Shown: in pieces, positions 9,239-34,760 of the stretch
How the letters are laid out: each line of letters begins with the position of its first letter
Position numbering within the stretch: position 1 is the first letter of the stretch
Position numbers and translations under genes: made by a program
The notes under the pieces: generated by a model
What the model was told of the DNA's origin: nothing
What the model saw: the letters and a program-made list of their open reading frames with translations, nothing else
Database searches by the model: none
Source: Phytoactinopolyspora alkaliphila
Lineage (GTDB): Bacteria > Actinomycetota > Actinomycetes > Jiangellales > Jiangellaceae
Direction: 5' to 3'
DNA: 64,000 bases
Assembly (NCBI RefSeq): GCF_010550695.1
Contig: NZ_JAAGOB010000012.1
Span: forward strand, 77,844-141,843

Positions 9239-9915
9239 GCGACCTGGTCGTCGACGAGCCGGTATCCGGCGCCGCGCACGGTGCGCAGACTGTGGCGGCC
9301 GAACGGGACGTCGATCTTGCGCCTCAGGTATCCCACGTAGACCTCGACGACGTTGGGGTCGCCGTCGTAATGCGGGTCCCAGACATGCTCGAGGAGGTCC
9401 AGCTTGGACACCACCTCGTCACGGCGGTGCAGGAGGTAGCGCAGCACGCCGAACTCCCGCGGGGTCAGCTCGATGGGCTGATCGCCACGGCGGACCGCAC
9501 GCGTGGCGGGGTCGAGGAAGAGATCGCCCACGCTGAGCACGGCTGGCCGCTTGGGCGCGCCGCGCCGGATGAGCGCGCGCAGCCGAGCGACGAGCACGAC
9601 ATAGGAGAACGGCTTGGTCAGATAGTCATCAGCGCCGACGTCGAGGCCGTCCGCCTGATCGTACTCGCCGTCCTTGGCCGAGAGCATGAGAATCGGCATC
9701 CACCGGTTCTCCGCGCGCAGCGTCTGGCAGATCCGGTAGCCGGACAAGGACGGCAACATGATGTCAAGGACGACGGCGTCGTAGTCGTTCTCCCTGGCCA
9801 GGTGCAGACCCTCGAGGCCGTCGTGGGCGAGCTCCACGGAGAACCCTTCCGCGGAGAGGCCGCGCTGAAGCGCACGTGCCATGCCCCGCTCGTCTTCCAC
9901 CACGAGAATTCGCAT
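9235..9915 (-). CDS. OmpR/PhoB-family response regulator
   Basis: DNA-binding response regulator of 226 residues. The receiver domain, about 1-115, has the acidic pocket (VVEDE), the phospho-acceptor Asp near residue 51 (VVLDIMLP), the switch Ser (MLSAK) and the Lys of LTKPFSY. The winged-helix output domain (ELTPREFGVLRYLL...VEVYVGYLRRKI...TVRGAGYRL) fills the rest. It is first in a two-gene operon with the kinase, with a 4-base overlap. Its start lies 113 bases from the divergent gene at 10029, so the shared region 9916-10028 is the likely place for autoregulation and control of that neighbour. Confidence 0.94.
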   Translation of the reverse strand: MRILVVEDERGMARALQRGLSAEGFSVELAHDGLEGLHLARENDYDAVVLDIMLPSLSGYRICQTLRAENRWMPILMLSAKDGEYDQADGLDVGADDYLTKPFSYVVLVARLRALIRRGAPKRPAVLSVGDLFLDPATRAVRRGDQPIELTPREFGVLRYLLHRRDEVVSKLDLLEHVWDPHYDGDPNVVEVYVGYLRRKIDVPFGRHSLRTVRGAGYRLVDDQVA

Positions 9916-10028
9916 GTGGCCAGTGTCCCGCCTTTCCCGCCAAGATGGCCGTCAAGCTCTCAGTGTCCTCACAGCGCCGGCCGCGCACAGTGGACGTATT
10001 GGATCCGTGATGCAAGGAGAACATAGAG

Positions 10029-11210
10029 ATGGCTACCGCAGTGGACCACCCCGGCAGGCGCAAAGTGTTCGGAAAGCCGTGGGTGGTCCCCGCGGTAGCC
10101 GCGACGGCGGTGGTGGCCACGGCCGTCGCCGTGCCTCTCATCGCCGATGCCGACTCCGACCTTCCGGAGCGCAGCGCGGCGGAACTGTTCGCCGGCCTCG
10201 CCCGCGCGCCCGAGGTGCCCTTCGCCGGTACCCTCGTGTACTCCGCGGACCTGGGACTGCCCGACCTGTCGGCCTTTACCGATGACGACAGCACCACCCC
10301 GTGGTCACTGCTCAGCGGAGCCACCACGGCCCGGATCTGGTATTCCGACCTGGACACGTTCCGGATCGCGTTGCACGGAGAGTTGTCGGAGACCGACCTG
10401 ATCCGGGACGGCGACAGCTTCTGGTACTGGGACAGTGACGAGAACACCGTGACACACCTGGACGCGCCCGCGAGTCAGGAGGACCCCGCGGGTGGCCTGT
10501 TCGGAGCTGATATGGGTCGCGCGCTCGGCAGCTCGGACGTCGTCGCCCAGCTGGCCATGCACTGGCTGGCGCCTACCACCGAGATCTCCGTGGACGGCAC
10601 CGCCACCGTGGCCGGCCGTCCTGCCTATGAGCTCGTCATCGCCCCTCGCGACGAGCAGTCCCTCATCGGCTCGATCCGGGTGGCGATCGACGGTGAACAC
10701 GGTGTTCCGCTCCGGATCCAGGTTCATAGCACCGACGGCGGCGACCCCGCGATCGAGGTCGGCTTCACGTCGGTCTCGTTCAAGGAGCCGGATCCGTCGG
10801 TCTACGAGTTCACACCGCCGCCTGGGGCCAGCACGGAGGAACTCGACCTGGACTCCTGGCTCTCTGCCCACGAGGAGCATGATCCGTTCGGCGGCGCGCC
10901 GCTGGGCACCGACGAAATGGCGGTGGATGTGGTCGGCGAGTCGTGGACGTCGGTTCTTATCGTCGACGGCGTGGATCCTGCGCGCCTCGCCGCTCAGCTC
11001 GAGAAGCTGAGCACGGAGTCGGACAAGGACGTCGGTGACGTCGCTGGAGCCGTCGGCGCCCTGCTCTCACAGATGCGCCCCGTGGGTGGGCCCTACGGCT
11101 CAGGGCTCGCCCTGGAGAGCCGGCTCCTCTCGATCCTCCTGCTGGATGACGGGCGGCTCTTCGCCGGAGCGGTGAGCCTGGAAGCGCTCGAAGAGGCGGC
11201 AGCCGACTGA
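10029..11210 (+). CDS. Exported LolA/MucB-like protein (DUF2092-type)
   Basis: A 393-residue protein with an uncleaved-looking N-terminal signal anchor (WVVPAVAATAVVATAVAVPLIA, about 19-40) after a short basic leader. The rest is soluble and extracytoplasmic. The segments TTARIWYSDLDTFRIAL, DSFWYWDSDENTVTHL, VAGRPAYELVIAPRDE and GVPLRIQVHS are those of actinobacterial LolA/MucB-fold proteins, which form a half-barrel lipid or lipoprotein binding surface. These are often sensors or chaperones for envelope stress. The Shine-Dalgarno AAGGAGA at 10014-10020 lies about 8 bases before the ATG. Divergent transcription from an OmpR-type two-component operon suggests functional linkage. The specific ligand is unknown. 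Confidence 0.75.
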   Translation: MATAVDHPGRRKVFGKPWVVPAVAATAVVATAVAVPLIADADSDLPERSAAELFAGLARAPEVPFAGTLVYSADLGLPDLSAFTDDDSTTPWSLLSGATTARIWYSDLDTFRIALHGELSETDLIRDGDSFWYWDSDENTVTHLDAPASQEDPAGGLFGADMGRALGSSDVVAQLAMHWLAPTTEISVDGTATVAGRPAYELVIAPRDEQSLIGSIRVAIDGEHGVPLRIQVHSTDGGDPAIEVGFTSVSFKEPDPSVYEFTPPPGASTEELDLDSWLSAHEEHDPFGGAPLGTDEMAVDVVGESWTSVLIVDGVDPARLAAQLEKLSTESDKDVGDVAGAVGALLSQMRPVGGPYGSGLALESRLLSILLLDDGRLFAGAVSLEALEEAAAD

Positions 11211-23822: not shown

Positions 23823-23970
23823 CAGGCCATCTAATGAGTAACGACGGCGCTTGTCCAGAGGCAGTTCGATCTTCGGCGTGCACCGCGCCGTGTGCAGCGC
23901 CGCGCGCGACGGCTCGTGCCAGGTGGCCGCCAGCCGCACCGACGGCCGTCACCTCGTATGCTGTCGGGCG

Positions 23971-25224
23971 ATGGCGGATTCGGCGGCGGACCAATCGAAC
24001 CCAGCGGACTCAGCCCACCTGGCGGGCCTGGCGAGCCCGGGGGCGCCGAGGTTGCGTGGTCGCACGGCGGACGCCGTCCTGGCCGCGCTGACCGCTGTGG
24101 TCGCGATAGCCGGCAGCGTGTTTCCAGAGCGCGACACCGAGATCACGCCCGTCGGCTGGCTCGTGCTCATCCTGACGTGTGCTGCCCTGTACTTTCGGCG
24201 GGCCTATCCGCTCGCGGTCACCCTGGTGACCCTCGCCGGGACAGCGGCGTATCTGTTGATGCCCGATCCCGACGGACCTGTCATCATCGCGTTCGCCATC
24301 GCCCTGTACACGCTCATGGCCACCGGCCGGTTCGCCGTCGGCGCGCTCCTTGCCGCCGTGGTGATCGTGGCGTCGTTCTACGGCGAGTACAGCACCGACA
24401 CCGAGAACCTCGGTGAGCTCGGGGTGCTGTTCTTCGCTGGTTGGTTGCTGTCGGTGATGGCGATCGGAGGCGCCGTCTACAACCGGCGGGCATACCTGCG
24501 GGAGGTCGAGCGCCGCCTGCGGGAATCCGAGCTCAACCGGGTGGCGGAGCTCGAGCGGCACACTACCGAGGAGCGGCTGCAGATCGCCCGTGAGCTGCAC
24601 GATGTCCTCGGCCACACTATCTCGCTCATCCACGTCCAGGCCGGAGCGGCATTGCACCGGATGGGCAAGGACACGTCCCAGGCGGAGGAGGCCTTGAGCG
24701 CCATCAAGGCGAGCAGCCAGGAGGCGTTGCGCGAACTTCGGGCTACCCTCGGCGTGCTCCGGCAGGTGGACGAGGCCGCCCCCACGACACCGGCGCCCCG
24801 CTTGTCCAGAGTCCACGAGGTGATCGAGCGGACCCGGTCGAGCGATCTCGACGTTCATGCGGAGATCCAGGGCGAGCCGCCGGCGTGGCTTCCGTCCGCG
24901 GTCGATGTCGCGGGCTACCGCATCGTTCAGGAAGCCCTGACCAATGTCACCCGCCACGCGGACGCGTCGACGGCCATCGTCCGCGTCCGGTTCGGTTCCG
25001 AGGCCGTCGTCATCGAGGTACTGGACGATGGGCGGGGCGGTACGCGGCAAGCCGGCAGCACACCGGACGGAACGGGAGTAGGCATCATCGGGATGACAGA
25101 GCGAGCGGCATCGGTGGCGGGCGAGCTCAACGCCGGCCCTCGCGCCGAGGGCGGGTTCCGGGTCCACGCGCGCCTGCCGTACGGGACGCCGCCAGCGGAA
25201 CGTGGCGCTGAGGAGAGCACGTGA
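23971..25224 (+). CDS. NarL-type sensor histidine kinase
   Basis: A 417-residue HPK7-family kinase. Five or six TM helices fill about 25-165 with no large extracytoplasmic domain. A short coiled coil leads to the HisKA_3 motif with the phospho-acceptor His in ARELHDVLGHTISLIHVQAG, and then HATPase (VQEALTNVTRHA, VLDDGRGG, GTGVGIIGMTERA). ATG 23971 (MADSAADQ) is the start; upstream codons lack family match. The stop overlaps the regulator's GTG by 4 bases. This architecture commonly senses membrane or envelope stress. The MMPL-oxidase operon downstream is a candidate target. Confidence 0.92.
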   Translation: MADSAADQSNPADSAHLAGLASPGAPRLRGRTADAVLAALTAVVAIAGSVFPERDTEITPVGWLVLILTCAALYFRRAYPLAVTLVTLAGTAAYLLMPDPDGPVIIAFAIALYTLMATGRFAVGALLAAVVIVASFYGEYSTDTENLGELGVLFFAGWLLSVMAIGGAVYNRRAYLREVERRLRESELNRVAELERHTTEERLQIARELHDVLGHTISLIHVQAGAALHRMGKDTSQAEEALSAIKASSQEALRELRATLGVLRQVDEAAPTTPAPRLSRVHEVIERTRSSDLDVHAEIQGEPPAWLPSAVDVAGYRIVQEALTNVTRHADASTAIVRVRFGSEAVVIEVLDDGRGGTRQAGSTPDGTGVGIIGMTERAASVAGELNAGPRAEGGFRVHARLPYGTPPAERGAEEST

Positions 25225-25886
25225 TCCGGGTACTTGTCGCCGACGACCAGCGGCTCGTTCGAGCCGGATTCGGATCCATCCTCGACGGTGAGGACGACAT
25301 CCGGGTGATCGGCGAGGCCTCCACCGGCGCCGAGGCGCTGCGGCTGACCCGTGAGCTGGGTCCGGACGTGGTGCTCATGGACATCAGGATGCCGGAGATG
25401 GACGGTCTCGAGGCTACCCGGGAGATCGTTCGCGACGACGCCCTGAGCACCGTGAAGGTCGTCATCCTGACCACCTTCGACCTGGACGACTACGTCTACG
25501 GCGCCTTGCGGGCGGGAGCCAGCGGGTTCATGGTCAAGGACACCGACCCCGTCGAACTGATCCACGCGGTCCGGGTGGCAGCCCGGGGCGATGCCCTGAT
25601 CGCGCCATCGGTGACGCGCCGGTTGATCTCGGAGATCGCGGGACGGCGTGAAAGGCCGGCGCCGGCTCCGCAGCTCGAGATGCTGACCGAACGGGAGCGT
25701 GAGGTGATGACGCTCGTCGCCGCGGGCCTGTCCAACGACGAGATCGCCGAACAACTGGTACTCAGCCCCGCGACGTCGAAGACCCACGTGAGCCGGATCA
25801 TGACCAAGCTTGGCGCCCGGGACCGCGCGCAGCTCGTCGTGATCGCCTACGAGTCGGGCCTGATCACCCCGGGCTGGCTGGACTGA
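25221..25886 (+). CDS. NarL/LuxR-family response regulator
   Basis: A 221-residue partner of the preceding kinase. The receiver domain has the phospho-acceptor Asp in VVLMDIRMPEMDG (near residue 54), TTFD as switch and Lys in MVKDTDP. The LuxR-type HTH is at the C-terminus (LTEREREVMTLVAAGLSNDEIAEQLVLSPATSKTHVSRIMTKL). The start GTG lies within the kinase stop (GTGA overlap). The next gene on the strand begins 175 bases later, beyond a small stem-loop, so the MMPL operon probably has its own promoter in that gap. Confidence 0.93.
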   Translation: MIRVLVADDQRLVRAGFGSILDGEDDIRVIGEASTGAEALRLTRELGPDVVLMDIRMPEMDGLEATREIVRDDALSTVKVVILTTFDLDDYVYGALRAGASGFMVKDTDPVELIHAVRVAARGDALIAPSVTRRLISEIAGRRERPAPAPQLEMLTEREREVMTLVAAGLSNDEIAEQLVLSPATSKTHVSRIMTKLGARDRAQLVVIAYESGLITPGWLD

Positions 25887-25911: not shown

Positions 25912-26061
25912 CAACCTCCGTGGTACGGCCGCGCCATGAGCCACAACCCACGGTGTACGGCAGGTGTCATCCCCAGGCCGATGCCTTGAGCAGTGCCTTT
26001 GCCTCACCCTGGACGGTGTCCGAGCGGTGCGCATGTCGCGCCCGACGTGTTCAGGAGGCTG

Positions 26062-28242
26062 ATGACCGTGGCGACGACCACGTCCGACAATGCAGGGGGA
26101 GCCGGCCGCATGGGGCGGCTGGCCGGATGGTCGCAACGGCACCGCTGGTGGGCCCTGCTGCTCTGGGTACTGGTACTCGTCGGCGTCACTGCTGTGTCGC
26201 AGAGTGTCGGCGACGACTACTACGACGATCACACTCTGCCCGGCACCGAGTCGCAACAGCTCAGCGACACGCTCGCCGAACATGCTCCCGCGCAGGCCGG
26301 TGACTCGATTCAGATCGTTCTCCATGATCCCGACGGCTTCGGGAGCGAAGCCGTCCAGGAACGGGTCGAGACGATGCTGGATGAGGTCGGCACACTACCG
26401 CACGTGGTCGGGGTCACGAGCCCGTACGAGTCGGGGCACATGGTCTCCGCCGACGGGACGATCGGCTATGCCACCGTCGCGCTCGACGGCGGTGCCACCG
26501 ATGTCCCGAGCGACGCCGTGCGGACCATCATCGACACCGCGCACGTGGCCGGCGGCGACGGCCTGCAGGTGGAACTCAGCGGCGACGCGATTCGCGGCGC
26601 CGAAGAGTCGGAAGGGGGCGCGGCCGAGGGCGCAGGGATCCTGGCGGCACTGGTGATCCTCGTCTTCATGTTCGGCTCGTTCCTGGCTGCGACACTCCCG
26701 GTGATCACCGCGATCTTCGCTGTCGGCAGCACGTTGGGCGTGATTGTCCTGATGTCGAACGTCACGACCATCGCGAGCTACACGCCGCCCTTGATGATGC
26801 TCGTGGGACTGGGTGTCGGCATCGACTACGCGCTGCTGATCTTCGCTCGTTACCGTGCCGAGCTGCTGCGTGGCGCCGGCCGGCAGGAAGCCGCACGGAC
26901 GGCCCTGGACACGGCTGGGCGAGCAGTGATCTTCGCCGGTGTGACAGTGGTGTTCGCGCTGTTCGGCCTGTTCGCACTCGGTCTCGGCTCATTGCAGGGA
27001 GTCGCGCTGGCAGTCGCGTTGACAGTGCTTGTCACGATGGTGGCGTCGTTGACCTTGCTGCCCGCGCTGTTGACGGTCTTCGGCCGCAGGATCGAGCGCC
27101 GGATCACCAAGCACGCCGCCCGGACCAAGCGCGACGAGGGTGACCGGTGGCGTCGGCTCGCCGACGGCGTTGCGCGGAAGCCGTGGCCTCCGGTGGCGAT
27201 CGCCGTGATTCTCCTGGCGGCGTTGGCGATCCCGATGTTCGGTATGCGGCTTGGCTTCGCCGACGCCGGCAACGACGCCGAGTCGACCACCAGCAGACAG
27301 GCCTACGACCTGCTGGCCGAAGGGTTCGGCCCCGGTGTCAACGGTCCGTTGTTCGTCCTGACCGACGGCGTGCCGGAACAGGACGCGGGCCTGGTTCAGG
27401 AGAGACTGTCTCAGACACCGGGCGTCGCCAGCGCGTCACCTCCGCAGCCGATACCGGATACCAGCCTCGCTACCGTCATGGTGTTCCCCGACAGTGCGCC
27501 GCAGGACGAAGCCACCAGCGACCTGGTCGCGAACCTGCGCGGCGACGTCCTTCCGGACCTGGCCGGCCAGACTGGAGGCACATACCTGGTCGGCGGATCG
27601 ACCGCGGCCGCTGACGACTTCTCCGAAGCGGTCAGTGATCGGATGCCACTGTTCCTCACCGTGGTGGTCGGCCTGTCCTCCTTGCTGCTCATGGCCGTCT
27701 TCCGATCGATCCTGATCCCACTGAAGGCCGCTGTGCTCAACCTGCTGGTCATCGCGGCATCACTGGGCGTGGTCACCATGGTGTTCGGCGAGGGCATGTT
27801 CGGCGTTCAGCCGGGGCCTGTGGAGGCCTTCGTGCCGGTCATGATCTTCGCGATCGTCTTCGGGCTGTCGATGGACTACGAGGTGTTCCTGGTCTCGCGG
27901 ATGCACGAGGAGTGGCGCCGGACAGGCGATGCCGTCGTCGCGATGCGGGAAGGCTTGGCCAAGACGGGCGGGGTGATCACAGCCGCGGCGGCGATCATGA
28001 TCGTGGTCTTCGGTGCGTTCATGTTCAGCCCGGACCGGATGTTGCAGCAGTTCGGCCTCGGTCTGGCCGTGGCGGTCTTCCTCGACGCGATCGTGGTCCG
28101 CTGCCTCGTCGTCCCTGCTGTGATGCGGCTGTTCGGAGCCAAAGCGTGGTGGCTGCCGCGCTGGCTGGATCGGGCGCTTCCGCAGATTCCGATCGAACGC
28201 GCGGAGCCGGCATTCGTGCCGCGTGATCCGGTCGCCACGTGA
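26062..28242 (+). CDS. MMPL/RND-family membrane exporter
   Basis: About 726 residues with 12 predicted TM helices in two halves, each beginning with one TM helix and a large external domain. Family marks are VGLGVGIDYALLIFARYRAEL with GRQEAARTALDTAGRAVIFAGVTVVFALFGLF in the first half, and GLSMDYEVFLVSRMHEEW with ALAKTGG-like GLAKTGGVITAAAAIMIVV in the second. The conserved Asp-Tyr of each TM4/TM10 is present. Such proteins use proton flux to export lipids or drugs. AGGAGG at 26053-26058 is only 3 bases from ATG 26062 but 9 from GTG 26068, so translation may really begin at 26068. The stop overlaps the cydA-like start by 4 bases. Confidence 0.9.
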   Translation: MTVATTTSDNAGGAGRMGRLAGWSQRHRWWALLLWVLVLVGVTAVSQSVGDDYYDDHTLPGTESQQLSDTLAEHAPAQAGDSIQIVLHDPDGFGSEAVQERVETMLDEVGTLPHVVGVTSPYESGHMVSADGTIGYATVALDGGATDVPSDAVRTIIDTAHVAGGDGLQVELSGDAIRGAEESEGGAAEGAGILAALVILVFMFGSFLAATLPVITAIFAVGSTLGVIVLMSNVTTIASYTPPLMMLVGLGVGIDYALLIFARYRAELLRGAGRQEAARTALDTAGRAVIFAGVTVVFALFGLFALGLGSLQGVALAVALTVLVTMVASLTLLPALLTVFGRRIERRITKHAARTKRDEGDRWRRLADGVARKPWPPVAIAVILLAALAIPMFGMRLGFADAGNDAESTTSRQAYDLLAEGFGPGVNGPLFVLTDGVPEQDAGLVQERLSQTPGVASASPPQPIPDTSLATVMVFPDSAPQDEATSDLVANLRGDVLPDLAGQTGGTYLVGGSTAAADDFSEAVSDRMPLFLTVVVGLSSLLLMAVFRSILIPLKAAVLNLLVIAASLGVVTMVFGEGMFGVQPGPVEAFVPVMIFAIVFGLSMDYEVFLVSRMHEEWRRTGDAVVAMREGLAKTGGVITAAAAIMIVVFGAFMFSPDRMLQQFGLGLAVAVFLDAIVVRCLVVPAVMRLFGAKAWWLPRWLDRALPQIPIERAEPAFVPRDPVAT

Positions 28243-29525
28243 ACGCCGAGACCCTGGAGCTGGCGCGGCTGCAGTTCGCGGTGACCGCGGGCGCGCACTT
28301 CCTCTTCGTCGCACTGACGCTCGGACTCGCGACCATCGTGGCCTGTGTCCAGCTCCGGGCGACGGTTTCGAGAGACCCGGTGCGGACGGAGATGGTCCGG
28401 TTCTGGGGCCAGCTTTACGTGATCAACTACGCCATGGGGATCCTGACAGGTCTTGTCATGGAGCTGCAGTTCGGGTTGAGCTGGAGCGGGCTCACGCACT
28501 TCGCGGGCAACGTGTTCGGCTCCGCGCTCGCCATGGAGACGCTGGTTGCCTTCTTCATCGAGTCGACGTTCCTCGCCGTGTGGATCTTCGGCTGGGGCCG
28601 GCTGGGCCCGTGGGCGCACGTGGCCGTGTTTTGGGTCGTCGCCCTCACGGCGTACGCGTCGGCGTACTGGATCCTGGTGGCCAACGGCCTCATGCAGAAT
28701 CCGGTGGGAACTCGCGTCGACGGCGACACGCTCGTCGTGACCGACCTCAGCGCCGTGCTCACCAATCCGAGCGCCGTCACGGCCTTCTGGCACATCGCCG
28801 GCGGTGCCCTGCTCACCGGCGGGTTCCTGGTGGCCGGGGTCAGTGCGTACCACCTGTACCGCCGAAGCCGCCACGGCGAGCTGTTCACCCGCTCGCTGCG
28901 CATCGGCGTGTTCACCGCGCTCGCGGGGTTGGTGCTCAGCGTGGTCACCGGCGGCATGCAATTCGAGTGGCTGGGCGACGTCCAGGCGATGAAGATCGCG
29001 GCGTTCGAGGGTGACAGTGCGGAGCTGGACGCCCTCCAAGCCGCGATGTCGGCGCAGTTCGGTGCCGGCGACTACACACCTCCGTCACTGGCCCGCGCCG
29101 GTGGCGTGGTGATGCTGCTGGCGTTCGCCTTGATGCTGTGGCTGCTGATCGCCGGCGCCTTGCTTGCGTCCTTCCGCCGAGCCGTGCTCAGGTTCCGGCT
29201 CTGGCACGTCGTCCTGGTGGCGTCGATCCCGCTGCCGTACATCGCGATGATCGCGGGCTGGGTCTTTCGCGAAGTAGGCCGGCAGCCGTGGGTGGTCTAC
29301 GAGATGCTGACCGTCGAGGACGCGGTCTCGGACGTCTCGGACACCGTCATGCGGGCGTCGCTGCTGACGTTCACCGCGATCTTCGGGACGCTGATCGCGG
29401 TCACGGTGTGGTTGCTCGCCCGGCATGCGCGACGCGACCCGGGCACCGGGTTCCTGGGCCGGGTGATCGACGAGCGGGGTGGCCAGGAGCCGTCCACCGC
29501 CGTCCTGACGTTCGTGGGGAGATGA
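28239..29525 (+). CDS. cydA: Cytochrome bd-type oxidase subunit I-like, without Q-loop
   Basis: A 428-residue membrane protein with nine TM helices, shorter than typical CydA (about 450-520). Conserved high-spin-haem residues are visible: His20 (AGAHFLF), Glu100 (AMETLVAFF) and Glu108 (IESTFLAVW), as well as His185 (FWHIAGG) and the GWVFREVGRQPW block near 340-351. Lys252 and Glu257 remain, but only about 30 residues separate them from the next TM helix instead of over 100, so the quinol-binding Q-loop is essentially absent. Where the RxM haem b558 ligand should be, the sequence reads RAG (286-288). It may not oxidise quinol in the usual way. GTG 28239 overlaps the exporter stop by 4 bases. 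Confidence 0.85.
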   Translation: MNAETLELARLQFAVTAGAHFLFVALTLGLATIVACVQLRATVSRDPVRTEMVRFWGQLYVINYAMGILTGLVMELQFGLSWSGLTHFAGNVFGSALAMETLVAFFIESTFLAVWIFGWGRLGPWAHVAVFWVVALTAYASAYWILVANGLMQNPVGTRVDGDTLVVTDLSAVLTNPSAVTAFWHIAGGALLTGGFLVAGVSAYHLYRRSRHGELFTRSLRIGVFTALAGLVLSVVTGGMQFEWLGDVQAMKIAAFEGDSAELDALQAAMSAQFGAGDYTPPSLARAGGVVMLLAFALMLWLLIAGALLASFRRAVLRFRLWHVVLVASIPLPYIAMIAGWVFREVGRQPWVVYEMLTVEDAVSDVSDTVMRASLLTFTAIFGTLIAVTVWLLARHARRDPGTGFLGRVIDERGGQEPSTAVLTFVGR

Positions 29526-29531
29526 GCGCCG

Positions 29532-30344
29532 ATGGAGACACTCGCTGTGGTGACGCTGGCCTTCTACGTGCTCGGCTACTTCGTCCTCGGCGGCGCGGAC
29601 CTCGGCACGGGCATGATGCTTCCGTTCCTCGCCCGCAACCGGGCCGAACGGCGGCTTGTTGTCGCGGCGATCGTGCCCTTCTTCCTGACCAGCGAGGTCT
29701 GGCTGATCGCGTCCGCCGGACTGCTGATCGGGTTCTTCCCGGCCTTGGAAGGTGAGCTGGTCAGCGGTCTGTTTCCGCTGATCGTGGTTCTCCTGGCCGG
29801 CTGGGTGACTCGTGACGCCGGTGTCTGGTTCCGCGGCAGGGTCACAGGCGACGGCGTCGCGGCACGTAGCTGGCGCGCCGGGTGTGACGCGGCCATCTGC
29901 GCCGGGAGCTGGCTTGCGGCCGGAGCGTGGGCATGGATCCTGTCCGGCATGCTGGGCGGGACCTTCACGCGCGTTCTCACCGATCCGGCGGTGATCTTCG
30001 CTGTCCTGGCCGTACTGGTGGTTTTCGGCCTGCATGGTCTGGCCTTCGCCGCGCTTCGGCTCACCGGAGCGCCGCAGCGCCGCGCGGCGCAGGGTTTCGG
30101 CGCGATGGGGGAGAAGCAGGCTTTCGCCCTCACGGCCGCGGCCCTGATGACTCTGGTCGCGGCCGCCGGGTCGGGGCTCGAGCTGACCGGATCCGCGGCC
30201 GACCCGGCGACCCTGGCGTGGCTGGTGCCGGCGGCCCTGGCACTCACTCCGCTGCTGATGGCCAGCCAGGTGTGGGTGTGGTGGCTGTTCGGCCGCCGCG
30301 TTTTCGCGCCGGAGGATCAGGACAACAACGTACTCATCCCTTGA
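29532..30344 (+). CDS. cydB: Cytochrome bd-type oxidase subunit II-like, short and divergent
   Basis: A 270-residue membrane protein with about eight TM helices; usual CydB is 330-380. It is recognised from LGGADLGTGMMLPFLARNRAERR and TSEVWLI, which align with the DGFDLGVGML...GRNDxERR and DGNEVWL blocks of CydB. In the usual protein these blocks carry conserved acidic residues. Here the first Asp of DGFD is Gly, and the WDGN segment is FLTS, so those acids are missing. It follows the subunit I-like gene by 6 bases. No cydC/cydD assembly genes are nearby. The 3' end overlaps the convergent ABC permease gene by 11 bases. Confidence 0.82.
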   Translation: METLAVVTLAFYVLGYFVLGGADLGTGMMLPFLARNRAERRLVVAAIVPFFLTSEVWLIASAGLLIGFFPALEGELVSGLFPLIVVLLAGWVTRDAGVWFRGRVTGDGVAARSWRAGCDAAICAGSWLAAGAWAWILSGMLGGTFTRVLTDPAVIFAVLAVLVVFGLHGLAFAALRLTGAPQRRAAQGFGAMGEKQAFALTAAALMTLVAAAGSGLELTGSAADPATLAWLVPAALALTPLLMASQVWVWWLFGRRVFAPEDQDNNVLIP

Positions 30345-31230
30345 GTCCTCCCGACGTCAGGCCCGCGACGATCCGCCGCTGGAACAGCAGCGCGACGATG
30401 ATCATCGGAATGACGACGACGACGCACGCCGCGGTGATGATCCCGACCGGGCGCTGGAACTCGACCTGGCCGGTGAACGCGGCGATCGCCACTGGCACGG
30501 TCTGAGCGATCTCCGGATTGCGCGGGGCGAAGGTGTTCGCGAGCAGGAACTCGTTCCATGCCGTCACGAAGATGATGATCGCCGCTGCGAAGACGCCGGG
30601 TGCCGCCAGTGGGAAGATCACCTTGTAGAAGGCCTGGAACGGGGTCGCGCCGTCCACTCGGGCCGCCTCCTCGAGCTCCCGCGGGATGGAGGCGTAGAAC
30701 GCGGTCAGGATGAAGATGGTGAGCGGCAAGGTGAACGCCGTGTAGGGCAGGTACAGGCCTTCCCAGGTATTGAGCAGACCGAGCGTGCGCCACGCCTCGT
30801 AGAGCGGCGGCACCAGAGCCACCGGAGGGAAGAGCGAGACCGCCAGGACGCCGGACAGAAGCAGGATCTTGCGCTTCATCGGCAGCCTGGCCAGGGCGTA
30901 ACCGGCGAGCGACCCGATGACGATGCAGATGATGGTGGTCATGCCGGCGATGGCCAGGGAATTGCGCAGATTCAGATGGAAGTTCTGCTCGAACACGCTG
31001 GCGTAGTTGTCCAGGCCGAACGGTCCCTGAAACAGATCGGGGCTGTTGAGCGCCCTGTCGCCGAGCTTGAGGCTGGTCATGATCAGCCAGAAGAACGGGA
31101 ACAGGCACCAGAACAAGACGATCACCAGCAGGCCAGTCCTCGCCCATGTCCGGCCCCCTGAACGCGCCTTGACCGGACCCTGGCGACCTGTGGTCTGGGT
31201 TGCGGTGGCCTCCTGCGTGACGTCGCTCAT
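30334..31230 (-). CDS. Sugar ABC transporter permease, MalG type
   Basis: A 298-residue permease with six TM helices. The ATPase-contact EAA loop is ELEEAARVDGATPFQAFYKVIFPLAAPG near residue 190. ATG 31230 (MSDVTQEA) is the start; the longer frame to 31512 would run through the other permease gene. Start and stop overlap the first permease by 4 bases (ATGA). It is the last gene of the substrate-binding protein - MalF-type - MalG-type operon. No ATPase gene accompanies it, so a shared MsmK/MsiK-like ATPase encoded elsewhere is expected, as is usual in actinomycetes. Confidence 0.92.
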   Translation of the reverse strand: MSDVTQEATATQTTGRQGPVKARSGGRTWARTGLLVIVLFWCLFPFFWLIMTSLKLGDRALNSPDLFQGPFGLDNYASVFEQNFHLNLRNSLAIAGMTTIICIVIGSLAGYALARLPMKRKILLLSGVLAVSLFPPVALVPPLYEAWRTLGLLNTWEGLYLPYTAFTLPLTIFILTAFYASIPRELEEAARVDGATPFQAFYKVIFPLAAPGVFAAAIIIFVTAWNEFLLANTFAPRNPEIAQTVPVAIAAFTGQVEFQRPVGIITAACVVVVIPMIIVALLFQRRIVAGLTSGGLKG

Positions 31231-32168
31231 CGCTCGGTTGTCCTTCCGATGACCAGTTGCCGGCCCAGCATGGAGACGAAGACCAGGCCGACGCCGAGAA
31301 TGATGACGAACGACAAGGTCGACAGCGCAGCGCCGTAGCCCGGATTGGGAGTGCGGACCACATATTGCTGGACCAGAATCGACAACGACTCCGTGTTGAA
31401 CGCCCCGCCCGTCATCACCTGCGGAAGATCGTAGACGCGCAGCGCCTCGACGGTACGGAACAGCAAAGCCACCAGGATGGCCGGGCGCAGGAGCGGAAGC
31501 GTGATGTACCACAGTCGCTGAAGCGCGTTCGCGCCGTCCGTCATCGCGCTCTCGTAGAGATCACCCGGAATCGTCTGCAATCCGGCCAGCAGCAGAAGAG
31601 CCACGAAGGGTGAGGTCTTCCACACATCGGCGAAGATCACCGCGAACGTCGCCCAGCCTTGCTGGCCCAGCCAGTTGAAGTTCCCGAGGCCGAACACGTT
31701 GTTGATGAACCCGGGCGTCACGTTGAACATGAAGAACCACATCTGGGCCGCGATCACCGTGGGGATCACCCAGGGGATGAGGATCGCCGCTCGAGTGATG
31801 CCGCGTCCCCTGAACGCCTGATTCATGATCAAGGCGAAACCGAGCCCGATGAGGAACTCCGCTCCGACGGAGGTCACCGTGAACACCAGGGTGAATCGCA
31901 ATGACTCCCAGAACCGGCCGTCGGTCAGCGCGTCGGCGTAGTTCTGCAGTCCGGCGAACCCGACATGCTGGCGGCGCGTGTATTCGTTCAGGCTCAGGAT
32001 GAATGCATAGACCACCGGGAACAGCGCCACCAGAGCCATCAGGATGATCGACGGCGCGATGAACAACCTGGCGAGTGTGCGTTCGGAGAACCCACCGGCC
32101 CGAACCGACGACTGGTCCGGGCCTGCAGGTTCGACACTCCTGGCCGGCGCGACGGGCGTGTCTGCCAT
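31227..32168 (-). CDS. Sugar ABC transporter permease, MalF type
   Basis: A 313-residue permease with six TM helices. An N-terminal cytoplasmic tail of about 30 residues is followed by the first TM helix (LFIAPSIILMALVALFPVVYAFILSL). The EAA loop is PGDLYESAMTDGANALQRLWYITLPLLRPA near residue 225. It pairs with the MalG-type permease through a 4-base overlap and lies 18 bases after the binding-protein gene, so all three are one operon. The substrate is probably a sugar or disaccharide of the trehalose/maltose group, judged from family resemblance only. Confidence 0.92.
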   Translation of the reverse strand: MADTPVAPARSVEPAGPDQSSVRAGGFSERTLARLFIAPSIILMALVALFPVVYAFILSLNEYTRRQHVGFAGLQNYADALTDGRFWESLRFTLVFTVTSVGAEFLIGLGFALIMNQAFRGRGITRAAILIPWVIPTVIAAQMWFFMFNVTPGFINNVFGLGNFNWLGQQGWATFAVIFADVWKTSPFVALLLLAGLQTIPGDLYESAMTDGANALQRLWYITLPLLRPAILVALLFRTVEALRVYDLPQVMTGGAFNTESLSILVQQYVVRTPNPGYGAALSTLSFVIILGVGLVFVSMLGRQLVIGRTTER

Positions 32169-32186
32169 GGCCGGTGCCCTACCTCG

Positions 32187-33440
32187 TCACTGCTCGACCG
32201 TGGTTTCCAGGTGAGACCGGACCGCCTCCACCGAGCTCTGGATGTCAGCCTCACCATTGACGGCCGGGAAGAGCGCGCGCTGCATCTCGACGCTGATCTC
32301 ATTCCACTCCGGGGCCGGCGGCCGCGGTTTGGCCTCGCCGAGCACGTCACCGAGCAGCGCCATCACCGGGTCGTCCGCCAGATCGTCATATACCGAGGCC
32401 ATGGTGGGTGGCACTGACCCCTCCGTGGCGAGCATCGTCTGGGCCTCCTCATTGGTCGCGGCCCAGACCACGAACTCTTTGGCAGCGTCGATGTTGTCGG
32501 AGAAGGCGCTCACGCCGTTGTTGAAGCCGCCGAGTGCTGAGATCGTCCCGTCTCCGGTGAAGGTCGGCAGGGGAGCGATGTCGAACTCCGGGGCCTCCTC
32601 GTCCTCTTCGAGCAGGGAGTGCACATACGGCCAGTTACGCATGAACACAACGTTGCCCTGCTGGAATTCGTTGCGGGCCTCTTCCTCTTGCGCGGTGTTG
32701 AACCCCGGTGCGTAGCACCCGTCGGCCATGGCGTCGGCCATGAACTCCGTCGCTTGGACACCCAGCTCGGTGTCGAACGCCACCTGTGTCTGATCTTCGT
32801 TGTACAGCTCGCCGCCTGCGCTCCAGTAGTACTCGAGCCAGTTCACGACGAAGCCCTCGTACCGTGCGCCCTGGCCGATGAAGCCGTTGATGCCCTCGTC
32901 CTCGGCGACGGAGATGGCCTCCTCGCAGAGTTCATCCCACGTGGTCGGCGGCTCATCGACGAGATCGGTCCGGTAGTAGAGGAAACCGGCGTTCGAGTTG
33001 TACGGCGCCACCCACAGCTCGTCACCCCACGTCGCCGACTCGAACGGCCCGGGCAGCGTCGCGCCCTCGATCTCGCCCCGGACATCTTCGAGACTCTCGA
33101 GCCATTCGTTCTCCGCGTACTCACCGGTCCAGATGACATCGACTCCGAGCACGTCGAAGCCGCTGCCCTGAGCCTGAAGCTCGAGCGCTTGCTGCTCGCG
33201 TTGCTGATCGGCTTCTTCGGGCAACAGCTCGATTCGGATGGGCGTGTCCGGATTCTGCTCGTTCCACAGCTCTGCGACCTGTTCGTGGACGCCTCCGGGT
33301 TGCGCCTCGGCCCCGCCGATAGCCCACACCAGTTGCCTGGTCTCGCCCTCGTCGCCGCCGTCGTCACCTCCGGGAGTACACGCCACCGCAACCAGCACCG
33401 CAACTGCCGTCAAGGACAGCCAAGCACTGCGTATTCTCAT
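32187..33440 (-). CDS. Sugar ABC transporter substrate-binding lipoprotein
   Basis: A 417-residue extracytoplasmic solute receptor. The signal peptide ends in the lipobox VAVAC (lipidated Cys at residue 21), followed by a Gly/Asp linker. The family-1 binding-protein pattern is clear: VWTIGGAE-like VWAIGGAEAQPGGVHEQVAELWNEQNP, FDVLGVDVIWTGEYAENEWLE, WGDELWVAPYNSNAGFLYYRTDLV, ARNEFQQGNVVFMRNWPY and ISALGGFNNGVSAFS. Many surface aromatic residues suit sugar binding. It resembles the LpqY/ThuE (trehalose) group. It heads the operon with two permeases. Confidence 0.9.
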   Translation of the reverse strand: MRIRSAWLSLTAVAVLVAVACTPGGDDGGDEGETRQLVWAIGGAEAQPGGVHEQVAELWNEQNPDTPIRIELLPEEADQQREQQALELQAQGSGFDVLGVDVIWTGEYAENEWLESLEDVRGEIEGATLPGPFESATWGDELWVAPYNSNAGFLYYRTDLVDEPPTTWDELCEEAISVAEDEGINGFIGQGARYEGFVVNWLEYYWSAGGELYNEDQTQVAFDTELGVQATEFMADAMADGCYAPGFNTAQEEEARNEFQQGNVVFMRNWPYVHSLLEEDEEAPEFDIAPLPTFTGDGTISALGGFNNGVSAFSDNIDAAKEFVVWAATNEEAQTMLATEGSVPPTMASVYDDLADDPVMALLGDVLGEAKPRPPAPEWNEISVEMQRALFPAVNGEADIQSSVEAVRSHLETTVEQ

Positions 33441-33521: not shown

Positions 33522-34760
33522 TTACCGGGGCCAGGGCAGCTCGGCCGACAAAGTGAAGCCTCCGTCGGGTAGCGAACGATGGGAGAGCAGCCCACCGGCA
33601 AGATCCACCCGCTCGCGCAATCCCACCAGGCCGGTGCCGGCCCCGGGGATACTGCCGTCTGCGACGTGGCGGCGCAGGGGCGCGTTGTGCACGCTCACGC
33701 GCAATCCCTCTCCGGGTCCACCACCGAGGGAGATGGTCACGGCCGTGCCGGGAGCATGCTTGCGTGCGTTGGTCAGGCCCTCCTGGATGAGCCGGTACGC
33801 GCACCGGTCCACGAGCGGCGGCGGGTCGCCCTCGTCCGTGCGGGTGTCCACGACGGTGACGTCCATGCCGGCTTGCGTGGACTCGGTGACCAGGCTGGTC
33901 AGCTCCTCCAGAGCGGGCTGGCCAGCGCCGTCGGCGCGCTGAGCAGGCGTGCGCAACACCCCGATCACCTCCCGTAGATCCTGTAGCGCCTGGTGTGCGC
34001 TCTCCCGGATCACACCGGACACCCGAGCGAGATCTTCCGGAGGCGCGTCGGGCCGGTACTCCAAGGCGTTGGCGTGCACGCTGAGCAGTGACAGCCGGTG
34101 TGCCAGCACATCATGCATCTCCCGGGCGATCCGCTCACGCTCGCGATGCCTGGCCTGCTCCACGCGCAGATGCGCTTCGGATTCGGCCTGGCGGGCGCGT
34201 TCGCGAAGGGAGATCACCAGCTGGCGCCGAGCCCGCACGAACATTCCCCACGCGACGATCGCGACGGTGAACAAGGCGATGAACACCATGGAGGCCGGCC
34301 ACGACATGTCTGGCGAGGGATAGATGCGAAAGTAGAGCGCAGCTCCGAGAATGTTGGCCGCCGCAATCCCGGCCACCACCGGGAACCGGCGATGCACGGC
34401 CACGGTGAAGATCATCACCACCAGCGCGCCGCTCGTGGCGGGGGAGAACAGCCCGGCCACGGTCATGATCACGGCGAGGTGGACCGGCCAGCGACGCCGC
34501 CACCACAGGGCGACACAAGCGCTCGCCCCAACCGCGAGGTCGACGATCCGCAGCCAGGTGAACCCATCGACCTGGACGACCTCGACGAAGCCGAGGATTC
34601 CGAAGACGATGGCGATGAGAAAGGCGGCTACGTCGACGGCCCAGTCGCGCGGCGAGCGCCGGGCGTGCCGCTCCGCCGGGCTCACGTCGGCCGTCAGCAA
34701 TGCCGGCAGGAGTCCCGGTAGGTCGGGACTGGGCCGACGGCTCGGCGATGTGTCGTTCAC
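33522..34760 (-). CDS. Orphan NarL-type sensor histidine kinase
   Basis: A 412-residue HPK7-family kinase. Four to six TM helices at about 40-175 are followed by a coiled-coil linker, the phospho-acceptor His in AREMHDVLAHRLSLLSVHAN and the HATPase domain (IQEGLTNARKHA, GTGLVGLRERV). A GTG start is at 34760. No response regulator gene is next to it. It lies upstream of the sugar-transport operon on the same strand with an 81-base gap, so it might be co-transcribed and sense related signals, but a distant partner regulator is needed. Confidence 0.88.
   Translation of the reverse strand: MNDTSPSRRPSPDLPGLLPALLTADVSPAERHARRSPRDWAVDVAAFLIAIVFGILGFVEVVQVDGFTWLRIVDLAVGASACVALWWRRRWPVHLAVIMTVAGLFSPATSGALVVMIFTVAVHRRFPVVAGIAAANILGAALYFRIYPSPDMSWPASMVFIALFTVAIVAWGMFVRARRQLVISLRERARQAESEAHLRVEQARHRERERIAREMHDVLAHRLSLLSVHANALEYRPDAPPEDLARVSGVIRESAHQALQDLREVIGVLRTPAQRADGAGQPALEELTSLVTESTQAGMDVTVVDTRTDEGDPPPLVDRCAYRLIQEGLTNARKHAPGTAVTISLGGGPGEGLRVSVHNAPLRRHVADGSIPGAGTGLVGLRERVDLAGGLLSHRSLPDGGFTLSAELPWPR

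Follow-up and report, generated by a model that had tools for sequence, protein, structure and literature searches.

A short-loop cytochrome bd variant of actinobacteria that keeps its haem residues and lacks the usual quinol-site and proton-channel residues

The closest described relatives of the system reported here are the canonical CydAB cytochrome bd oxidases of the qOR1 type, represented by structures from Mycobacterium tuberculosis (7nkz), Mycobacterium smegmatis (7d5i), Corynebacterium glutamicum (8b4o) and Escherichia coli (6rko and 6rx4), followed by the M. smegmatis AppCB enzyme, or cytochrome bd-II (qOR-2 type, 9r2g). More removed are two non-quinol branches, OR-N and OR-C, the latter carrying haem c (CXXCH) in the complex; the founding paper on both is reportedly Murali et al. 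2021. In the passages available to us, PMC13189123 and PMC10839748 divide the bd superfamily into qOR, OR-C and OR-N, and PMC10839748 gives OR-N a CydAA' make-up and describes the non-quinol branches as being without the quinol lid. Here we examine a cydA-cydB gene pair of Phytoactinopolyspora alkaliphila, which lies in a window of 64,000 nucleotides (the whole stretch of DNA that was analysed; contig NZ_JAAGOB010000012.1, positions 77,844 to 141,843) and whose subunit I has lost most of the loop that forms this lid.

The gene pair is CydAB of a bd-type complex, a variant of cytochrome bd. Specifically, the intact open reading frame at 28239-29525 of the forward strand, which an earlier note on this DNA (hereafter the original prediction) had already named as CydA-like, matches PF01654 with an E value of 1.4e-108 (363.6 bits against a cut-off of 26.2 bits), and cydB starts 6 bp 3' of it. 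The AlphaFold2 (AF2) model of window CydA has a mean predicted local distance difference test score (pLDDT) of 93.9 and a predicted template modelling score (pTM) of 0.91, and its top structural matches in the PDB are all cytochrome bd subunit I, with Z scores of 43-49 for the qOR1 chains (maximum 48.7). Both the PF01654 match and the bd fold therefore identify it as a subunit I of the bd superfamily. It scores below the NCBIfam equivalog cut-offs for E. coli-type CydA (PRK15097, 249 versus 968 bits; PRK15035, 225 versus 1025 bits). Its identity to canonical actinobacterial CydA is 38-41% for four of the five sequences in alignment A1 and 36% for the fifth, and only 26-30% to six more distant bd rows. 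As predicted, His20, Glu100, Glu108 and the GRQPW block are all present, and so is the complete set of high-spin haem residues (His19, Glu99, Glu107, Glu445 and GRQPW in E. coli numbering). Elsewhere in this genome there is a single canonical CydAB, on contig C23, and the genome has one gene for a haem-copper oxidase subunit I (COX1). Each of the 20 family genomes with a short-loop CydA also gives a canonical CydA match.

At a threshold of E <= 1e-70, matches occur in 59 of 393 genomes of the class, at 77 places; canonical CydA does not reach this threshold, its match being split by the loop. Of 396 genomes sampled across the phylum, three have a match at 1e-75, and these again belong to that class; a scan of genome contigs gave one relative only. 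We compared 60 of the 77 places, namely 59 that entered the tree and locus L048, which was omitted from the tree, the residue comparison, the spacing count and the 71-row and 65-row alignments; L004 was omitted from the tree and the residue comparison and kept in those two alignments. Among the 17 places outside the comparison, L016 has both the short loop and the methionine discussed below. When the Q-loop columns were excluded, in a tree that was rooted by six more distant rows and otherwise held canonical bd rows, the 59 short-loop rows form one clade beside canonical CydA, with a Shimodaira-Hasegawa-like approximate likelihood ratio (SH-aLRT) support of 100. Support for its two sub-clades, of 29 members and of 30 members including the window, is 84 and 93, so this deep split is only moderately sure, and the canonical part of the tree is unsure because of long branches such as that of E. 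coli.

The shortening of the Q-loop is confirmed by both alignment and model. Between the equivalents of Lys252 and Met393 there are 39 residues in the window; the count is 83 in the five canonical rows from actinobacteria and 140 in E. coli CydA. DSSP assigns helices to residues 250-257 (which hold Lys252), 260-274 and then 283-310 of the model. A relic of the end of the Q-loop, FGxGDY, is still readable in the alignment. The loop measures 12 to 54 residues in all 59 clade members compared, and the nonsynonymous substitution rate (dN) is well below the synonymous rate (dS) in two close pairs (0.011 versus 0.079 and 0.029 versus 0.17, a dN/dS of about 0.14-0.17). Thus, the shortening is inherited, and is neither a chance event nor a frame error.

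The original prediction had also held that a haem b558 ligand is absent, and this claim is not confirmed. Both axial ligands, His185 (E. coli His186) and Met292, are invariant in 65 of 65 alignment rows, the second corresponding to Met393, which PMC6853902, in the part available, names as the E. coli haem b558 ligand. The reading of R286-A287-G288 as the equivalent of the R-x-M motif came from an error of register. The partner of Met393 is Met292, and only the arginine is lost (Val290). Pairwise HMMER alignments and a 33-row alignment pair Val291 with Arg391 and Leu293 with Met393, leaving the invariant Met292 between them, and in the 71-row and 65-row alignments Met292 itself falls on Met393. 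Counted from this methionine to the tryptophan of GWxxxE, the spacing is 49 residues both for the window's group and for six more distant CydA rows; every other row but one (73) lies within 46-54. A register difference of one residue is therefore ordinary.

The register was tested on a structural model of residues 1-306 derived from 58 short-loop sequences without canonical rows; L004, L037 and L086 were left out of this set, and the other canonical rows were removed for the 58-row alignment. Residue 306 superposes on residue 407 of E. coli (four of four entries), 358 of M. tuberculosis (two of two), 360 of M. smegmatis and 363 of C. glutamicum. Provided that the helix 292-306 is free of gaps, the same offset takes Met292 to Met393, Met344, Met346 and Met349, which are the R-x-M methionines, as counted from pairwise HMMER alignments, in 8 of 8 qOR1-type chains. 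The offset also leads to position 325 of G. thermodenitrificans, which we take to be the ligand methionine, and to position 336 of the AppC structure (9r2g). Judging from sequence conservation and these superpositions, both b558 ligands are very probably present, and there is little reason to doubt that three haems would be kept. Alignment, proposed at the outset as a check on the missing ligand and the missing loop alike, thus restores the methionine and does not restore a functional Q-loop.

The usual quinol site fares differently from the haem sites. The lid arrangement of canonical qOR1 enzymes, a Q-loop with Lys252 and Glu257 together with Arg391, is not found in window CydA. Lys252 is present in the window and in 41 of the 59 short-loop rows, with Ser, Ala or Thr in the other 18; Arg391 is lost in every one of the 59 (Val290 in the window), and Asp239 is not kept either. 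The glutamate that served the original prediction as the landmark for the loop, Glu257, does exist in the window, but close orthologues have Ala, Ser or Thr in its place, and its correspondence to the E. coli Glu257 may therefore be accidental. With the lid, Arg391, Asp239 and a clade-wide Glu257 gone, the classic quinol site can no longer take its usual form, and these losses are best explained by an altered entry of electrons. They support the prediction that quinol is probably not bound at the classic site, which we consider very likely to be out of use.

One alternative entry point was dropped. Quinol could bypass haem b558 by binding at haem b595, a route put forward for the M. tuberculosis enzyme; the text of PMC8413341, as far as available, places menaquinone-9 (MK-9) at b595 with Trp9 and Met397 as markers. 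Neither marker has a match in the window, where Leu11 and Val346 occupy these places, and tryptophan occurs at the Trp9 position in 1 of 59 clade rows compared with 24 of 25 canonical rows. In addition, the accessible part of PMC11786768 now reads this MK-9 as structural.

A second supply line is altered in the same proteins. In a comparison of the 59 short-loop CydA with 25 canonical CydA and 24 canonical CydB, ten residues are invariant in both CydA groups (His19, Glu74, Glu99, Glu107, Ser140, His186, Met393, Trp441, Glu445 and Arg448 in E. coli numbering). Proton-path residues are another matter. Excerpts of PMC6853902 count Lys57 of CydA and Lys109, Asp105 and Asp58 of CydB among them, and those of PMC13189123 trace the path through Lys53, Lys57, Glu107 and Glu74 of CydA and Asp105 and Asp58 of CydB. 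CydA Lys57 occurs in none of the 59 short-loop rows (24 of 25 canonical). CydB Asp58 is absent from all 57 readable short-loop rows (56 Leu and 1 Phe, one further row being too short) and present in 24 of 24 canonical rows. Position 105 is acidic in none of the 57 (48 Trp, 8 Gln, 1 Leu), compared with Glu in all 24 canonical rows, and Lys109, again universal in the canonical set, is Arg in 53 of 57. The canonical channel of CydA Lys57, CydB Asp105 and CydB Asp58 is accordingly missing from the window, which has Gln58, Trp99 and Leu52 at these positions, and Arg103 at that of Lys109. Position 58 of CydB is Glu in all five readable rows of the more distant bd type (the sixth is unreadable).

Two residues are gained. 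Arg344, beside the haem b595 ligand, is Arg in all 59 short-loop rows and in none of the 25 canonical ones, and we infer that it takes the place of Arg391; Thr101 is gained in 59 of 59 rows as well (Ala in Nonomuraea). Window CydB has 270 residues compared with about 330-360 in canonical CydB, and the missing stretch is perhaps two membrane helices. CydB is near full length in some short-loop rows, namely that of the Streptomyces plasmid described below and those of L062, L066 and L067.

Could this clade consist of decaying paralogues without function? Two loci do look broken, L004 of Spongiactinospora and L048 of genome G014, the latter with cydA in two frames. The ten residues nevertheless remain invariant over 59 rows that share only 44-75% identity, dN/dS is low in both close pairs, and the operons are conserved, which together make decay highly improbable. 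Because the losses are clade-wide and extend to members that carry bd assembly genes of their own, they are better read as part of a working design.

A stronger contender is a nearly ordinary menaquinol oxidase, in which a lid-less, open pocket over b558 would still accept menaquinol and another proton path (via the kept Glu107, Glu74 and Ser140) would serve a low-activity or stress bd. All haem residues are kept, Lys252 persists in 41 of 59 rows, the assembly genes cydDC stand beside 25 of the 29 sister sub-clade members, and Lys252, Glu257 and Glu280 are now held, in the passages of PMC13189123 at hand, to keep the loop in place rather than to bind quinol. Against this stand the replacement of Lys252 in 18 of 59 rows and the complete loss of Arg391 (59 of 59) and of CydB Asp58 (57 of 57). 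We regard this alternative as unlikely, and as the most serious of those considered.

The window enzyme shares with canonical CydAB the fold, the haem ligands, the active-site residues and the CydB partner; it differs in lacking the Q-loop lid, Arg391 and CydA Lys57, in having Leu and Trp for CydB Asp58 and Asp105, in the added Arg344 at the b595 ligand and in its short CydB. AppCB of M. smegmatis is likewise a second bd beside CydAB and has the same fold (Z 40.5), but its identity in the structural match is 25%, its AppC retains the Q-loop residues Lys275 and Glu280 according to the part of PMC9498996 available, and position 58 is still acidic in the readable CydB of the more distant rows. 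The original prediction had suggested membership of the non-quinol branches. Loss of the quinol site is indeed common to the window enzyme, OR-N and OR-C as these are described, and an OR-N or OR-C enzyme fed by cytochrome c or a haem c domain would lack the quinol lid, as the excerpts of PMC10839748 have it. The suggestion is unsupported as stated: in a tree of canonical and distant bd rows the clade is sister to canonical CydA, identity to canonical actinobacterial CydA is 36-41%, the best PDB matches are quinol-oxidase chains, a CydB partner is present, and the CXXCH motif is absent from both window subunits and from every short-loop CydA row. Electron entry through haem c was rejected on the last point. 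With its CydB partner and no CXXCH, this CydAB pair close to qOR1 is neither a haem-c OR-C nor a CydAA' OR-N enzyme as described, and membership of either branch has only a slight chance of being correct. A full-text search of the literature gave no recognised description of a Q-loop-less actinobacterial bd; Murali et al. 2021 lay outside the scope of that search, and novelty in print is not claimed.

Starting from the computed fold, kinship, kept ligands, lost residues and neighbourhood, we hypothesize as follows on haem content, substrate, rate, proton bookkeeping and regulation. CydAB would bind b558 through His185 and Met292, and the b595/d pair through His20, Glu100, Glu345 and their neighbours, and would still reduce O2 or a like ligand such as nitric oxide (NO) or peroxide. 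The donor to haem b558 might be menaquinol, bound in a pocket left open without its lid, or some other membrane component. Proton supply by the wire from CydA Lys57 through CydB Asp105 to CydB Asp58 would be impossible, and for this reason the reaction would probably be slow or separate less charge than that of canonical bd. Bulk respiration would then be left to canonical cytochrome bd and the haem-copper oxidase encoded elsewhere in the genome, and the short-loop CydAB would be made on demand under the adjoining kinase and regulator, beside an MMPL exporter; the link to a kinase may point to an envelope or redox signal as the inducer.

An intact haem chain and O2 site make a reductase the most plausible interpretation. 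On whether a working three-haem bd-type reductase with altered electron and proton entry, used beside canonical bd, is correct in full, we are evenly divided. Considered separately, real reductase activity is somewhat probable, menaquinol is a donor that we neither favor nor disfavor, and little or no charge separation is slightly doubtful. A more far-reaching version is less likely than not: the lid and the cytoplasmic proton wire would have been lost together, with the new Arg by the b595 ligand replacing Arg391 at the haem propionates, to leave a non-electrogenic electron valve or an oxygen/NO scavenger that forms one unit with a two-component system in one sub-clade and, in many members, with an MMPL exporter as well.

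Several observations weigh against a working reductase. The proton-channel losses could equally mean a lost oxidase function, CydB of the window's group is 60-90 residues shorter than canonical CydB, and the window's sub-clade is without adjoining cydDC. The AF2 models are without haem, the ligand geometry is read only from the end of the alignment range, and the small alignments put Leu293 rather than Met292 at the ligand position.

Table 1. Coordinates of the gene pair, its diagnostic codons and the adjoining genes (positions in the window)
Feature	Coordinates	Strand	Basis or remarks
cydA-like subunit I	28239..29525	+	428 aa, GTG start, short Q-loop, haem ligands all retained
cydB-like subunit II	29532..30344	+	270 aa; PF02322, E 4e-34
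His185 codon, haem b558 axial ligand (E. coli His186)	28791..28793	+	invariant in 65/65 rows
Met292 codon, haem b558 axial ligand (E. coli Met393)	29112..29114	+	invariant in 65/65 rows, structural offset
Q-loop remnant, residues 250-274	28986..29060	+	two short helices, DSSP on model and alignment
Gln58 codon, at E. coli CydA Lys57 (proton channel)	28410..28412	+	alignment
CydB Leu52 codon, at proton-path Asp58	29685..29687	+	residue comparison
Arg344 codon, beside haem b595 ligand Glu345 (E. coli Ala444, Glu445)	29268..29270	+	residue comparison
HisKA_3 sensor histidine kinase, N-terminal membrane domain (DUF7134)	23851..25224	+	PF07730, PF23539
NarL/LuxR-type response regulator	25221..25886	+	PF00072, PF00196
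MMPL-family exporter	25993..28242	+	PF03176, E 2.2e-90

The genes in the window run in the order histidine kinase, response regulator, MMPL exporter, cydA, cydB, with overlaps of 4 bases between kinase and regulator and between the MMPL gene and the start of cydA. Of the 30 members of its sub-clade, the window among them, 24 have a regulator orthologue (62-83% identity) upstream and on the same strand, 23 have the kinase as a neighbor and 14 an MMPL gene (upstream in one family, downstream in another); the rows are related, and these counts are not independent events. The regulator of L085 lies downstream on the other strand instead, and the order in Nonomuraea gerenzanensis is kinase-regulator-cydA-cydB. 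None of the 30 has cydDC beside cydAB, a weak ABC (ATP-binding cassette) match about 8 kb away in L039 being left uncounted. In the sister sub-clade, by comparison, cydD of a dedicated cydDC, the bd assembly exporter, adjoins the locus in 25 of 29 members, and a regulator of the window type stands beside it in none of the 29.

Such an arrangement invites the alternative that CydAB is a haem-based redox or gas sensor, whose haems would take O2, NO or electrons and inform the adjoining membrane kinase. The regulator (24 of 30) and kinase orthologues that adjoin most members of the window's sub-clade would fit this role, as would the dismantling of both the electron and the proton supply lines of an oxidase. 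The 29 sister members, however, show the same losses without the kinase and mostly with cydDC, so the losses are independent of the kinase link, and the O2-site residues are kept in full, beyond what a sensor needs. We therefore consider a sensor improbable and retain the reductase as the preferred reading.

A consequence for annotation can be seen in Streptomyces sp. NBC_00019, which has a plasmid-borne cydABDC annotated as ubiquinol oxidase. Its CydA (WP_331737331.1, 'cytochrome ubiquinol oxidase subunit I' in PGAP) has a loop of 38 residues, keeps the methionine and has lost Arg391, its CydB has Leu at position 58, and cydDC takes the place of the kinase, regulator and MMPL genes of the window. 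The name implies a quinol site, the usual form of which is absent there, and this suggests that 'ubiquinol oxidase subunit I' is an unsafe name for dozens of actinobacterial proteins. The quinol oxidation site and the proton route to haem d in cytochrome bd bear on drug design against M. tuberculosis, and the clade offers a natural experiment on these drug-target enzymes. Since its members keep all haem residues and have dropped both supply lines, a purified member would show which parts of canonical bd each half-reaction needs.

Other features were noted at individual loci. In Spongiactinospora gelatinilytica (L004, 4752-7149) a short-loop cydA and a kinase occur without regulator and cydB, and the N-terminus is out of frame, as either a broken copy or a sequencing error. 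In L048 (genome G014, 9331-10481) cydA is split over two frames, and cydB, the MMPL gene, the regulator and the kinase match over their length. In several sub-clade members the regulator and the MMPL gene stand 1-2 kb apart, and the interval holds a long open reading frame on the opposite strand, rich in membrane-like segments (for example L044, 5268-7250). Downstream of the gene pair in the window, a sugar-type ABC transporter (30334-33440, reverse strand; binding protein and two permeases) converges on cydB, the end of which shares 11 bases with the last transporter gene. Beyond it lies a second DUF7134-HisKA_3 histidine kinase (33522-34760, reverse strand), and one that is 54-60% identical adjoins 11 of 12 family loci.

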